From positions 1 through 47,220 of the forward strand of contig JAFEFZ010000311.1 in NCBI GenBank assembly GCA_018240325.1: DNA of 47,220 nt, written 5' to 3'. Each line of letters begins with the position of its first letter. The first letter of the stretch is position 1. Positions 1 to 5,073 of the stretch are shown piece after piece. The notes beneath the pieces are model-generated. The model had not been told where the DNA came from. It worked only from the letters and a program-made list of their open reading frames with translations, and ran no database searches. The DNA is from Pseudomonadota bacterium (GTDB lineage: Bacteria; Pseudomonadota; Gammaproteobacteria; Burkholderiales; Burkholderiaceae_C). A program made the translations under genes and the position numbers.

Positions 1-568
1 CCGGATCGGGCAGCGGGGGCGCACGCCAGCGCGCATCGTCGATCGCGATGTCGAGCGCGCGCGCCATGTACAGCGCCGCCTCGTGGTGCATGTCCTCGTG
101 CAGCAGCGCGAGGCGAAAGAAGTACAGCGCGTCGTCGCCGTCGCCGGCCGCGCGCAGCCGCGCGAGGGTGGCGTCGAGCTGGCGCGCCAGGTCGGCGCGT
201 GTGGCCGCGGCGTCGGGCAGCGGCAGCTGCCAGCGGCTGTCGTGCGCCACCCGGCTCGAGTTGTAGAGCGCGTCGGCGCCGGCGCGCAGCGGTGCGCGCC
301 GCGCGGCGTCCGGGTCGGCGCGCGGCCCGAGCTCGAGCTGCGGGTTGCGCGCGATCCAGTACTCCTGGAACCAGCCGATGTGCCCCAGCTCCCACAGCGG
401 CGGGTTGAGTTCAGCGCGCAGCGGCACCTGCAGGCCCGGCAGCGCGCGCTCGTAGGCCGCGAAGGCGGCGAGCGTGTCGGCGCGGCTCGCGCGCAGCGCA
501 TCGGCCAGCGCCTGCGGCGGCCCGCGACGGGCGTCGAGTGCCGGGCGCTGTACGCTCGCGTCGTGCAT
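1..568 (-). CDS. senA: SenA-type selenoneine synthase (EgtB family), 5' part only
   Basis: This is the N-terminal 189 codons of a leftward gene cut by the window edge. The ATG is at 568-566. The translated part is a DinB-like/EgtB N-terminal domain: PPLWELGHIGWFQEYW (about residues 55-70) supplies the first metal histidine, and HEDMHHEA (about residues 160-167) gives the HxxxH(x)E iron-binding set seen in EgtB and SenA. EgtB and SenA are non-haem iron enzymes that attach sulfur or selenium to the imidazole of trimethylhistidine. The call of SenA rather than EgtB rests on context: the gene is head to head with senB and senC homologues. The C-terminal FGE-sulfatase-like domain that would carry specificity residues lies outside the window, so ergothioneine synthase is the main alternative. 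Confidence 0.85.
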   Translation of the reverse strand, partial: MHDASVQRPALDARRGPPQALADALRASRADTLAAFAAYERALPGLQVPLRAELNPPLWELGHIGWFQEYWIARNPQLELGPRADPDAARRAPLRAGADALYNSSRVAHDSRWQLPLPDAAATRADLARQLDATLARLRAAGDGDDALYFFRLALLHEDMHHEAALYMARALDIAIDDARWRAPPLPDP

Positions 569-1543
569 CGTGAACCCCTGGTCATCGTGACGCCGGCGCT
601 GGCCGCGGCCAACAACGGCAACTGGCACACCGCGCGGCGCTGGGCGCGGCTGCTCGCGCCAGCTTACCGCGTCGCCGTCACCGACTGCTGGAGCGGCGGC
701 GCCGAGACCTTGATGATCGCGCTGCACGCGCGCCGCTCGGCCGCGTCGGTGGCCGCCTGGCGCGCCGCGCATCCGGGCCGGCCGCTGCTGCTGGTGCTGA
801 CCGGCACCGACCTGTATCGCGACATCGCCACCGATGCCGACGCGCAGCGCTCGCTCGTGCTGGCCGATGCGCTGGTGGTGCTCAACGAGCTGGGCGCGCG
901 GCAACTGCCCGAGGCCTTGCGCGCCAAGGCGCAGGTGGTGCTGCAGTCGAGCCCGGCGCGTGCGCCGGCGGCGCGCACCCCGCGCCACCTGCGCGCGCTG
1001 ATGGTCGGCCACCTGCGCGCCGAGAAGGACCCGCAGACCTACTGGCGCGCGGCGCAACGGCTCGCGCAGCGGCGCGACATCCGGCTCGACCACATCGGCG
1101 CCGCGCTCGACCCGGCGCTCGGCGCGCAAGCCGCGGCGCTGGCCGCACGGCAGCCGCAGTTCCGCTGGCTCGGTGGCCAGCCGCACGCGGCGGTGCGCCG
1201 GCGCATCCAGCACGCGCACGTGCTGGTGCACCCGAGCCGGATGGAAGGCGGCGCGCAGGTCGTGATCGAGGCGATCCGCAGCGGCACGCCGGTGCTCGCG
1301 TCGCGCATCGACGGCAACCTCGGGCTGCTCGGCAGCGGTTACGAAGGCGTGTTCGCGCCCGGCGACGATGCGGCCTTGGCTGCCCTGCTCGCACGCGCGC
1401 GCGACGAAGCCGATATGCTGCCGCGGCTGGCCGCGCAGCTGGCCCTACGGTCGCACCTGTTCGATCCCGCGGCCGAGCAGGCCGCGCTGCACCGGATCAT
1501 CGGCGCGCTGCGGGCGCGCCACCTCGACCGAAGCCCCCGATGA
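563..1543 (+). CDS. senB: SenB-type selenosugar synthase (glycosyltransferase-like)
   Basis: The product is a 326-residue GT4-like protein. It opens with a short beta strand (LVIVTPALAAANNGNW). It continues through LHARRSAASV and LTGTDLYRDI, and ends in the GT4-type EGGAQVVIEAI...GTPVLASRIDGNLGLLG block at about residues 230-265. This pattern matches the family now known to be SenB, which makes a selenosugar from selenophosphate and a UDP-sugar. The GTG at 563 is chosen because it is the closest in-frame start that keeps the first beta strand. The frame is open for a long way upstream, but that part is antisense to senA. No good ribosome binding site is visible. The stop overlaps the senC start by ATGA, so the two are probably translationally coupled. 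The start overlaps the senA start by six bases on the other strand, which is unusual. Function is by family match and context. Confidence 0.88.
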   Translation: MHREPLVIVTPALAAANNGNWHTARRWARLLAPAYRVAVTDCWSGGAETLMIALHARRSAASVAAWRAAHPGRPLLLVLTGTDLYRDIATDADAQRSLVLADALVVLNELGARQLPEALRAKAQVVLQSSPARAPAARTPRHLRALMVGHLRAEKDPQTYWRAAQRLAQRRDIRLDHIGAALDPALGAQAAALAARQPQFRWLGGQPHAAVRRRIQHAHVLVHPSRMEGGAQVVIEAIRSGTPVLASRIDGNLGLLGSGYEGVFAPGDDAALAALLARARDEADMLPRLAAQLALRSHLFDPAAEQAALHRIIGALRARHLDRSPR

Positions 1544-2613
1544 ACGCACCGAATTCCCCTGCCGCGGCGGCCGAGCCGCGCCTGACCTCGCTGTCGCACG
1601 GCGGCGGCTGCGGCTGCAAGATCGCCCCGGGCCTGCTGTCCGAGATCCTGAAGGGCAGCGCGGCGCTGCCGGCGCCGGCCGAGCTGCTGGTGGGCATAGC
1701 CACCGCCGACGACGCTGCCGTCTACCGGCTCAACGACGAGCAGGCGCTGGTCGCGACCACCGACTTCTTCATGCCGATCGTCGACGACCCCTTCGACTTC
1801 GGCTGCATCGCCGCGACCAATGCGATCAGCGACGTCTACGCGATGGGCGGCCGGCCCATCCTCGCGCTCGCGCTGGTGGGCATGCCGATCAATGTGCTGT
1901 CCACCGCCACGATCGGCCGCATCCTCGAAGGCGGCGCGAGCGTGTGCCGCGCCGCCGGCATCCCGATCGCCGGCGGCCACACGATCGATTCGGTCGAGGC
2001 GATCTACGGGCTGGTCGCGCTCGGCCTCGTGCACCCGAAGCGGGTCAAGCGCAACGCCGACGCGCAACCCGGCGACCTGCTGCTGCTGGGCAAGCCGCTG
2101 GGCGTGGGCGTGATGAGCGCGGCGCTGAAGAAGGGCGCGCTCGACGCCGCCGGCTATGCCCGGATGGTCGCGACGACCACGCAGCTCAACACCCCCGGCC
2201 CGGATCTGGCGGCGCTGCCCGGCGTGCACGCGCTCACCGACGTCACCGGCTTCGGCCTGGCGGGGCACGCGCTCGAGATGGCGCGCGGCTCGGGCTGCAC
2301 GGTGCAGATCGACTGGCGCGCGGTGCCGCTGCTGGCCGGCGTGCGCGACCTGGCCGCGCACGGCTTCGTCACCGGCGCGTCGGGCCGCAACTGGGCCGCC
2401 TACGGCCACGACGTGGCGCTGCCCGACGCCTTCGAGCCGCAAGACCGCGCGCTGCTGTGCGACCCGCAGACCAGCGGCGGGCTGCTGGTGTCGTGCGAGC
2501 CGGGCGCGCTCGACGCGGTGCAGGCCGTCTTCGGCCGCCACGGCTTCGGCGCGGCCGCGGTCGTCGGGCGCGTGCTGGCGGCACAGGGCCGGCCGCTGCA
2601 GGTGCTGGGCTGA
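1540..2613 (+). CDS. senC: SelD/SenC-type selenophosphate synthase
   Basis: The product is a 357-residue selenide, water dikinase, which makes selenophosphate from selenide and ATP. The N-terminal loop SHGGGCGCKIAPG carries the catalytic Cys24 and Lys27, equal to Cys17/Lys20 of the E. coli enzyme. The first active residue is Cys, not selenocysteine. The metal/ATP-binding aspartates are visible in TADDAAVYRLND, the following TTDFFMPIVDDPFDFG, and NAISDVYAMGG. The C-terminal half keeps DVTGFGLAGHA and DPQTSGGLL. The length is normal for SelD. The gene overlaps senB by four bases, which points to selenosugar synthesis as its main client. It could equally supply SelU or SelA if those exist elsewhere in the genome. 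Confidence 0.93.
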   Translation: MNAPNSPAAAAEPRLTSLSHGGGCGCKIAPGLLSEILKGSAALPAPAELLVGIATADDAAVYRLNDEQALVATTDFFMPIVDDPFDFGCIAATNAISDVYAMGGRPILALALVGMPINVLSTATIGRILEGGASVCRAAGIPIAGGHTIDSVEAIYGLVALGLVHPKRVKRNADAQPGDLLLLGKPLGVGVMSAALKKGALDAAGYARMVATTTQLNTPGPDLAALPGVHALTDVTGFGLAGHALEMARGSGCTVQIDWRAVPLLAGVRDLAAHGFVTGASGRNWAAYGHDVALPDAFEPQDRALLCDPQTSGGLLVSCEPGALDAVQAVFGRHGFGAAAVVGRVLAAQGRPLQVLG

Positions 2614-5073
2614 ATGAGCAGCGGCGCGAACATGCCGCCGCAGCACACGACAACAGGCGCGGCGCCGGCCGACCCATCAGCCGATCCATCGGCCGACCCC
2701 GCAGCCGCCCCATCGGCCGGCGCGCACGACGGTGCACGCGATCCAGGCTCGAACGCTTCGCCCGCGGTTGACGCCGCCGCTGCGGCCGGGCTGACGACGG
2801 CGCAGGCGCAGCAGGCGCTGGCGCAGTTCGGCGCCAACGAGATCGCCGACGTGCGCGACAGCCTCGCCAAGCGTGCGTTGGCCAAGCTGTGGGCGCCGGT
2901 GCCGTGGATGCTCGAGGCGGCCGTCGTGCTGCAGCTCGCGCTCGGCAAGTTCGTCGAGGCGGCGATCATCGCCGCACTCGTCGCCTTCAACGCGGCGGTG
3001 GCGCTGGCGCAAGAGGGGCGCGCGCGCACCGCGCTCGCGGCGCTGAAGTCGCGGCTGGCGCTGAACGCAACGGTGCGCCGCGACGGCGCCTGGTGCACGC
3101 TGCCGGCCAAGGAACTGGTGCCCGGCGACCGGGTGAAGCTGTCGCTCGGCGCCGTGGTGCCGGCGGACGTGCAGCTCGTCGCCGGCGCGGTGCTGGTCGA
3201 CCAGTCGATGCTGACCGGCGAATCGCTGCCGGTGGAAGCCGGCGCCGGCGCGAGCACCTGGGCGGGCGCGCTGGTGCGCCGCGGTGAGGCCGAGGCGCTG
3301 GTCACCGCCACCGGCGCGCGCACGCGCTTCGGCCGCAGCGCCGAGCTGGTGCGCAGCGCGCACGCGCAGGGCTCGCAGCAGCAGGCGGTGCTGCGCGTGG
3401 TGCGCAACCTCGCGCTGTTCAACGGCACGGTGATCGCGCTGCTGGCCGCGCACGCGTGGGGCCAGGGCCTGCCGCTGCGCGCGATCGAGCCGCTGGTGCT
3501 GACCGCGCTGCTGGCGTCGATCCCGGTGTCGCTGCCGGCCACCTTCACGATGGCGGCGGCGCTGGCCGCGCACGTGCTGGCCGACCGCGGCGTGCTGGCC
3601 ACGCGGCTGTCGGCGCTGGACGAGGCCGGCAGCATCGACCTGCTGTGCTCCGACAAGACCGGCACGCTGACGCGCAACGAGCTGCGCGTCGTCGCCGCGC
3701 GGCCCTGCGCCGGCTTCGACGAAGCGGGGCTGCTGGCGCTGGCCGCGCTCGCCAGCTCCGACGCCGGCGCCGACCCGGTGGACGCGGCGATCCGCGCCGC
3801 CGCGGGGCCGCTGCCGCCGCTCGCCCGGCGGCTCGCGTACCAGCCCTTCGACCCGGCGACCAAGCGCGCCGAGGCGCGCGTGCAGGGCGCCGACGGCCGC
3901 GAGCAGCGCATCATGAAAGGCGCTTTCGCGGTGATCGCCGATGCGGCCGGCGCCGATGGCGCGCAGCGCCGCGAGGCCGACGCGCTCGAGGCCCAGGGCC
4001 ATCGCGTGCTCGCGGTCGCCGTCGCCGACGACGCGGGCGCACGCATCGCCGGACTGCTCGCGCTCAGCGACCCGCCGCGCGACGATGCGGCCGCGCTGAT
4101 CCGCCATCTCGGCGAGCGCGGCGTGCGCGTGATGATGGTCACCGGCGACGCCCCCACCACCGCGGCCGCGGTGGCGCGCACGCTGGGCATCCGCGGCGAG
4201 GTGTGCGCGCCGGGCGCGCACGCGGCCGCGGGCGCCGATTGCGCGGTGCTGGCCGGCGTGCTGCCGCAGGACAAGTACGAGCTGGTGCGCGCGCTGCAGC
4301 AAGCCGGCCACAAGGTGGGCATGTGCGGCGACGGCGCCAACGACGCGCCCGCGCTGCGCCAGGCGCACATGGGCATCGCGGTGGCGCAGGCGACCGACGT
4401 GGCCAAGGCCGCCGCCGGCCTGGTGCTGACCACACCGGGCCTGGCCGGCGTCGTCGACGCGATCGAGGAAGGCCGGCGTGCGTTCCGGCGGGTGCAGACC
4501 TACACGCTCAACTCGATCATCAAGAAGGTCGCCACGGTGCTGTTCATCGCCGCCGGCTTCGTGCTGACCGGGCAGCCGATCCTGACGCCGCTGCAGATGA
4601 TCGTGCTGCTGGTGGTGGGCGACCTGCTGTCGATGGCACTGACCACCGACCGCGCAACGCCCGCGCGCCGGCCCAACGTCTGGCGCATCGGCCGGCTCAC
4701 CGCGGTGGGCGTCGTCGTCGGGCTCGGGCAGCTCGCGTTCGCGGTGGGCGTGCTGGCGATCGGCGCATTCCGGTTGCAGCTGTCGCCCGGGGCGCTGACG
4801 ACGCTGGCCTTCCTGACCCTGGTGTTCGCGGGCCAGGCGACGATCTACGCGATCCGCGTGCGCGGGCGGCTGTGGGAGGCGGCGCCGGGCGGCTGGCTCG
4901 TCGCGGCGACGATTGCCGACCTGGGGATCGGCATCGCCGTGGCGCTGAGCGGCGTGCTCTCGGCGCCGTTGCCCGGCAGCGTCGTCGCCGCGCTGCTGGC
5001 GGCGTCGGTCGCGCTCGTCTTCGTGCTCGACGGCCTGCGCCGCGCCGCCTTCGCGCGCCTGGCGGTGGCGTAG
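2614..5073 (+). CDS. P-type H+-ATPase (plasma-membrane, type IIIA-like)
   Basis: The product is an 819-residue P-type ATPase. Its layout is a disordered Ala/Pro/Ser-rich N-terminus (about 1-58), the cation-ATPase N-domain (59-100), and two helices. Then come the actuator domain with TGES (201-204), the PVSLP motif in the next helix pair (304-308), phosphorylation site DKTGTLT with Asp347, nucleotide-binding KGAF (435-438), hinge GDGANDAPAL (572-581) and a C-terminal helix bundle. There is no metal-binding CxxC or CPx motif, so it is not a heavy-metal pump. The pattern resembles the fungal/plant proton pumps and their bacterial homologues, and Asp670 in VVGDLLSMALTTDR sits where those pumps have their proton-carrying Asp. 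Substrate H+ is therefore likely but not proven. The ATG follows the senC stop directly (TGAATG), so the gene is probably cotranscribed with senBC. Confidence 0.85.
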   Translation: MSSGANMPPQHTTTGAAPADPSADPSADPAAAPSAGAHDGARDPGSNASPAVDAAAAAGLTTAQAQQALAQFGANEIADVRDSLAKRALAKLWAPVPWMLEAAVVLQLALGKFVEAAIIAALVAFNAAVALAQEGRARTALAALKSRLALNATVRRDGAWCTLPAKELVPGDRVKLSLGAVVPADVQLVAGAVLVDQSMLTGESLPVEAGAGASTWAGALVRRGEAEALVTATGARTRFGRSAELVRSAHAQGSQQQAVLRVVRNLALFNGTVIALLAAHAWGQGLPLRAIEPLVLTALLASIPVSLPATFTMAAALAAHVLADRGVLATRLSALDEAGSIDLLCSDKTGTLTRNELRVVAARPCAGFDEAGLLALAALASSDAGADPVDAAIRAAAGPLPPLARRLAYQPFDPATKRAEARVQGADGREQRIMKGAFAVIADAAGADGAQRREADALEAQGHRVLAVAVADDAGARIAGLLALSDPPRDDAAALIRHLGERGVRVMMVTGDAPTTAAAVARTLGIRGEVCAPGAHAAAGADCAVLAGVLPQDKYELVRALQQAGHKVGMCGDGANDAPALRQAHMGIAVAQATDVAKAAAGLVLTTPGLAGVVDAIEEGRRAFRRVQTYTLNSIIKKVATVLFIAAGFVLTGQPILTPLQMIVLLVVGDLLSMALTTDRATPARRPNVWRIGRLTAVGVVVGLGQLAFAVGVLAIGAFRLQLSPGALTTLAFLTLVFAGQATIYAIRVRGRLWEAAPGGWLVAATIADLGIGIAVALSGVLSAPLPGSVVAALLAASVALVFVLDGLRRAAFARLAVA
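2669..2716. repeat. Imperfect 12-bp tandem array inside the P-type ATPase N-terminus
   Basis: There are four adjacent 12-bp units (2669-2680, 2681-2692, 2693-2704, 2705-2716) of the form CCGAyCCATCGG with a few changes. They encode an Asp-Pro-Ser-Ala-like repeat in the disordered N-terminal tail. The unit is a multiple of three, so copy-number change keeps the frame. Confidence 0.8.

Follow-up and report, generated by a model that had tools for sequence, protein, structure and literature searches.

The window, a 47,220-nucleotide stretch from a bacterium of the Burkholderiaceae_C that corresponds to contig C235 from its base 1 in the draft assembly G000, very probably begins with a sen cluster of the known type, for the biosynthesis of selenoneine. 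The analysis established which genes are present, what lies next to them and which key residues their products keep, and the reactions and the product, selenoneine, would be those of the characterised homologues. A preliminary description of this DNA had proposed that an EgtB-like protein, a SenB-type glycosyltransferase and a SelD homologue are clustered at 1..2613 and make selenoneine through a selenosugar. All three genes are present there, and the scores of SenA, SenB, SelD and EgtD together with the grouping of SenA support the proposal, with selenoneine, a selenium antioxidant, as the predicted product. The sen cluster itself is ordinary and well supported; the less ordinary points are a SenC that is probably shared with tRNA modification and a SenA-like paralogue without the iron site. 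The features are listed below, with contigs other than the window named by their handles.

1..568, minus strand: senA, N-terminal 189 codons of a putative selenoneine synthase, truncated at the end of the contig (frame, C248 overlap, SenA score)
C248 1-1053 (L004): remainder of senA, with the counterpart of the overlap; 350 residues to the stop
C248 1060-2250: egtD, convergent with senA (EgtD model over cut-off)
563..568: GTGCAT, head-to-head start overlap of senB (GTG 563-565, plus strand) and senA (ATG 568-566, minus strand)
563..1543, plus strand: senB, putative selenosugar synthase (Se-glycosyltransferase; TIGR04348, 430.6 bits, cut-off 300)
1540..1543, plus strand: ATGA, shared by the senB stop and the senC start, read directly in the sequence
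1540..2613, plus strand, from an ATG: senC, putative selenophosphate synthetase of the SelD family (NF002098, 529.4 bits, cut-off 299)
2614..5073, plus strand: P-type ATPase open reading frame, a neighbour outside the pathway (TIGR01647, 568 bits, below the cut-off of 615.5)
C223 28632-29552 and C209 826-1731: two SelU genes (over cut-off)
C186 14431-15654 (L005 4432-5658): SenA-like paralogue (SenA model, 353.4 bits, below the cut-off of 420)

Assembly of senA and arrangement of the cluster

The senA gene starts with an ATG at position 568 and reads downward on the minus strand off the contig end; because base 1 of the window is base 1 of C235, only the N-terminal part lies in the window. Contig C248 starts within senA and overlaps the window end by 400 bp. 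The two copies differ at 12 of these bases, of which 9 are third codon positions, as would be expected where strain variation has interrupted an assembly. Neither piece is interrupted and the two agree in frame across the overlap; because senA is divided between two contigs with these differences, the full-length protein is not available in one piece. The link between C235 and C248 is supported by relatives that have the same gene order, egtD> <senA senB> senC>, on single stretches (e.g., the Rubrivivax-type loci L012, L016, L025, L030, L048 and L051). Within the same genome, a search with the Pfam FGE-sulfatase domain matched C248 and C186 only. The assembly is a draft of 4.18 Mb in 321 contigs (98.78% complete, 1.87% contaminated), and all absences of genes reported here for this genome are therefore provisional.

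The GTG at 563 is the only in-frame start of senB found upstream of the conserved N-terminal motif. At its other end senB overlaps senC by ATGA, as the preliminary description had stated, and the same overlap occurs in 29 of the 50 senB loci read, the copy of the window (L060) included. This is the very feature by which the sen cluster was originally discovered, in a search for genes that overlap selD (PMC9814287). In addition, senA is divergent from senB and the two starts overlap by 6 bp, neither of which the preliminary description had stated; if these starts are right, there is no intergenic space between the genes. We read 51 loci (L010-L060, of which L060 is the copy of the window itself). 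In 38 distinct loci a senA motif in divergent orientation lies at most 1.2 kb from the senB motif; the others are 2 duplicates and 11 loci without such a motif. With starts chosen by position only, a choice was possible for both genes in 37 of the 38, and the best-ranked pairs lie -22 to +42 bp apart; the identical six-base overlap is possible in 8 loci, two of which require a start that is not best-ranked. Given these distances, the promoters of senA and senB probably lie partly within the partner gene.

Identity of the proteins

Families were assigned with NCBIfam models (release 20.0) and their curated cut-offs. The C248 piece of SenA alone reached 482.7 bits with the SenA model NF041186 (cut-off 420), compared with 213 bits, below the cut-off of 360, for the EgtB model TIGR03440. 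The part in the window scored 183.1 bits with SenA and 32.5 with EgtB, below the whole-protein cut-offs because it is half a protein. EgtD scored 354.3 bits (cut-off 290.9). Among solved structures, the C248 piece matched SenA (8k5i/8ryz) with 410 bits, OvsA (8ux5) with 110.8 and EgtB (4x8b) with 106.4. SenB matched four distinct SenB chain sequences with 325-343 bits (8jjq/8fbx, 343), and the next structure, 3c4q, annotated as predicted glycosyltransferases, followed with 24 bits.

A tree was built from 80 proteins, 78 of them different. The N-terminal senA piece of the window and its copy, L060, were left out, and an earlier step had removed matches of less than 500 bases. SenA of this genome falls inside a 26-row SenA clade that includes PDB 8ryz (support 99/97), apart from EgtB. 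A fully supported branch has 15 of the 16 EgtB rows on one side; the remaining row, 4x8b, has a long branch whose position is uncertain. SenA as a whole does not form one clade, since the SenA-like paralogue branches inside it. The preliminary description had raised grouping with sulfur-specific EgtB as the outcome that would speak against it; by scores, structures and tree alike, the protein groups with SenA. Its remark that these genes are still annotated as EgtB, glycosyltransferase and selenide water dikinase is outdated for SenA and SenB, which NCBIfam 20.0 names by function, and still applies to SenC, which is named SelD.

Active-site residues

In a multiple alignment, the three histidines aligned to the iron-binding histidines of EgtB are kept in 43 of 43 SenA rows, including our protein. 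Where EgtB has Arg87, 40 of the 43 SenA rows, again including our protein, have His; among the 16 EgtB rows, 15 have Arg and one has a gap. A tyrosine that aligns pairwise to EgtB Tyr377, whose role is treated in PMC10903977, is kept, but this is less clear in the multiple alignment, where the EgtB rows show V or L in that SenA column and have the following tyrosine aligned instead.

For SenB, all four of the residues N20, T23, K158 and E231, which matter by mutagenesis according to PMC10891094, are kept. The residues at 157 and 235 are V and H in the crystallised SenB and E and Q here, and the sugar preference may therefore differ from that of the crystallised enzymes. The EGGAHV motif reads EGGAQV here. 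An unusual active site was considered and rejected, as Glu157 occurs in 51 of 51 SenB rows and Gln235 in 23 of 51; these rows are biased towards relatives of our SenB, because the scan patterns were derived from it, and contain at least two near-copy pairs (L017/L054 and L015/L058).

Alternative explanations

One alternative is that the EgtB-like protein is a sulfur-type EgtB, that the cluster leads to ergothioneine and that senC is merely a neighbouring selD that serves tRNA selenouridine. The adjoining EgtD would fit such a pathway, the presence of SelU means that SelD is needed anyway, and another genome of the set (G031) has selD, egtD and egtB on one contig with no SenB over cut-off. However, the C248 piece fails the EgtB cut-off and exceeds that of SenA, and its placement in the tree is with SenA, so that scores and tree largely refute this explanation. 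The gene is, moreover, adjacent to senB, and SenB has, to our knowledge, no role in ergothioneine synthesis. We regard the ergothioneine explanation as very improbable.

It has equally little to recommend it that SenB uses another sugar donor, or that a selenosugar is itself the product and senA is decaying, with the contig break reflecting a damaged gene. Such a reading could draw on the two differences from the crystallised SenB, V157E and H235Q, and on the contig end that splits senA. Yet neither SenA piece is interrupted and the two agree in frame where they overlap, the active-site residues of SenA are kept, and the two SenB residues are ordinary among these relatives, given the frequencies above. 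Selenoneine biosynthesis by a sen cluster is by far the most probable explanation for the locus.

Comparison with known systems

The sen cluster (SenA, SenB, SenC) of Variovorax paradoxus DSM 30034 was reportedly described by Kayrouz et al. in 2022. Its three families are the same as those found here, with SenA matching 8k5i and 8ryz and SenB matching 8jjq and 8fbx. In our draft genome egtD is convergent with senA, and no EgtB was found over cut-off. The ergothioneine pathway of EgtB and EgtD has the EgtD step in common with the sen pathway; the SenA and EgtB families share the histidines and can be aligned across both domains seen in SenA, DinB_2 and FGE-sulfatase. According to the cited papers, ergothioneine synthesis employs EgtB and a thiol donor, in contrast to SenA and a selenosugar in the sen pathway.

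The mechanism that we propose is the published pathway of V. paradoxus (PMC9814287, PMC10891094 and PMC10702425), carried over by homology. SenC would convert selenide to selenophosphate, from which SenB would form a selenosugar with a UDP-sugar, UDP-GlcNAc being the donor favoured by the V. paradoxus enzyme. EgtD would convert histidine to hercynine, and SenA, an iron enzyme, would join the selenosugar oxidatively to hercynine to give a selenoxide that would break down to selenoneine. Hercynine from EgtD would be directed to selenoneine rather than to ergothioneine, because no EgtB over cut-off was found in the draft genome. Engineering of SenC is a subject of PMC11929427.

Variation was also seen among the other sen loci. 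Loci without senA were considered as a separate kind, which we rejected, as L011 has a SenA over cut-off (493.8 bits) about 2 kb downstream of senC. In four Azohydromonas loci (L024, L029, L045 and L047) no senA was found within the flanks of about 6 kb that were covered; these loci have egtD near senB-senC, and the sugar-binding motif of their SenB has EGAA or EGAP in place of EGGA. In L021 (6994-9291) the gene after senB is not a plain senC but encodes a 765-aa protein in which a pyridine nucleotide-disulfide oxidoreductase domain is fused to SelD; in G039 a SelD match falls within an open frame of 851 aa, at a distance of about 1.3 kb from senB.

Neighbours downstream of senC

The ATG of the P-type ATPase directly follows the senC stop. 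In the stretch up to 11261 it is followed by genes that we take to be a LysR-type regulator on the minus strand, the RuBisCO large and probably the small subunit, and further on by CbbX-like, fructose bisphosphatase-like and phosphoribulokinase-like genes, presumably a Calvin-cycle cluster. We considered whether the ATPase or the RuBisCO gene is conserved beside sen and dropped the idea: no match to the ATPase or cbbL occurred in the other loci compared, the Rubrivivax-type loci among them, within flanks of at most 6 kb that extend only a few hundred bases past senC in L049-L059 (L051 included). Matches to cbbR in L029, L036 and L045 were weak (26-32% identity) and were read as other LysR-type genes.

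Selenium and hercynine genes in the genus

We searched 61 genomes, comprising 37 of the genus (our own included) and 24 from elsewhere in the order. Our draft genome has a single SelD over cut-off, which is SenC; a second match of 51 bits lies below the cut-off of 125. There are two SelU (tRNA 2-selenouridine synthase) genes over cut-off, a number found only here and in G016 among the 61 genomes. SelA gave no match in the draft genome, and neither SelB (best 188 bits, cut-off 242) nor EgtB was found over cut-off in it. Its one EgtD is next to senA. The preliminary description had suggested looking for EgtD and for SelA, SelB and SelU. Controls over cut-off were obtained for the SelD search, E. 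coli among them, and for the SelU search, where E. coli was the single control over cut-off; the SelA search matched four control genomes including E. coli, one of the four over cut-off.

With one SelD, two SelU, no SelA match and no SelB over cut-off, selenium in this organism would go to selenoneine and tRNA selenouridine and not to selenocysteine, as judged from the gene content of the draft genome. As the sole SelD found, SenC would supply SelU as well, so that the selenium for tRNA modification probably also comes from SenC. In the titles and abstract openings searched, we found no description of a SenC shared with SelU.

The sen cluster is common in the genus: SenB was over cut-off in 30 of the 61 genomes and in 22 of the 37 in the genus; in G010 and G035 SenB matched only in part, at contig ends, and stayed below cut-off. 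All 22 of these genus genomes have EgtD over cut-off and at least one SelD. The only SelD adjoins senB in 18 of them, G007 and G028 have two SelD that each adjoin their own senB, and the sole SelD of G016 and G017 lies elsewhere. SelU was found in 21 of the 22 and was not found in G004, which is 79% complete. Where a single SelD stands beside senB and the genome has SelU, we infer that it serves both. Outside the genus the arrangement varies, and in G041, G048 and G050 the single SelD lies beside SelU and away from senB.

According to coordinates, selD, egtD and egtB lie on one contig stretch without senB alongside in G031 (C113) and G017 (C21), and so do selD and egtD in G013 (C116). All three stretches may be sen clusters that lost senA and senB but retained the only SelD.

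The pathway is common in the genus, to which the locus adds a candidate selenoneine producer, identified from its genes. It also suggests that SenC is not dedicated to selenoneine in these bacteria, since it is the only selenophosphate synthetase found. Loss of senC is predicted to remove both selenoneine and tRNA selenouridine, and loss of senB selenoneine only.

A SenA-like paralogue without the iron site

Matches to the SenA-like paralogue on C186 with at least 51% identity, some of them partial, occur in 34 of the 37 genus genomes, our own included, and a 104-residue fragment in G034 brings the total to 35 of 37. Several of the genus genomes that carry it have no SenB over cut-off. Residues and neighbours were compared in loci from 20 other genomes and in our own copy. 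The second histidine of HxxxH is missing in all 21, the first is kept in 19 (our own copy lacks it) and the upstream histidine is kept in 11. The group branches within SenA, and its nearest kin are L022 and L027 (support 100/99), intact SenA proteins that adjoin senB. Between the copies of our genome and G022, dN/dS was 0.29 (Nei-Gojobori script), so the paralogue looks like a maintained gene.

Gene calling in the paralogue and sen loci was crude (GC3-based), with neighbours clustered and domains taken from one example per regulator; on this basis, a response-regulator/histidine-kinase protein is near the paralogue in 17 of the 21 loci and a LuxR-type response regulator in 15. Four of the 21 loci have, instead of the regulators, a gene that we take to be folE2 (folE2-like), which in our genome is next to the paralogue. 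We found no description of a SenA-like paralogue, or of EgtB as a pseudoenzyme, in the titles and abstract openings searched.

Tentatively, and with slightly less than even confidence, we propose that a duplicated SenA gave rise to a conserved protein without the iron site, alongside a SenC that is the single SelD for both selenoneine and tRNA selenouridine. The paralogue is perhaps a repurposed SenA fold that senses a ligand or acts as a scaffold in two-component signalling, a role that is a guess from its neighbours. Its missing iron site calls for caution when genes are annotated from their resemblance to SenA or EgtB, and it is possibly a new signalling protein; if so, a repurposed SenA fold has been retained even in genomes without SenB.
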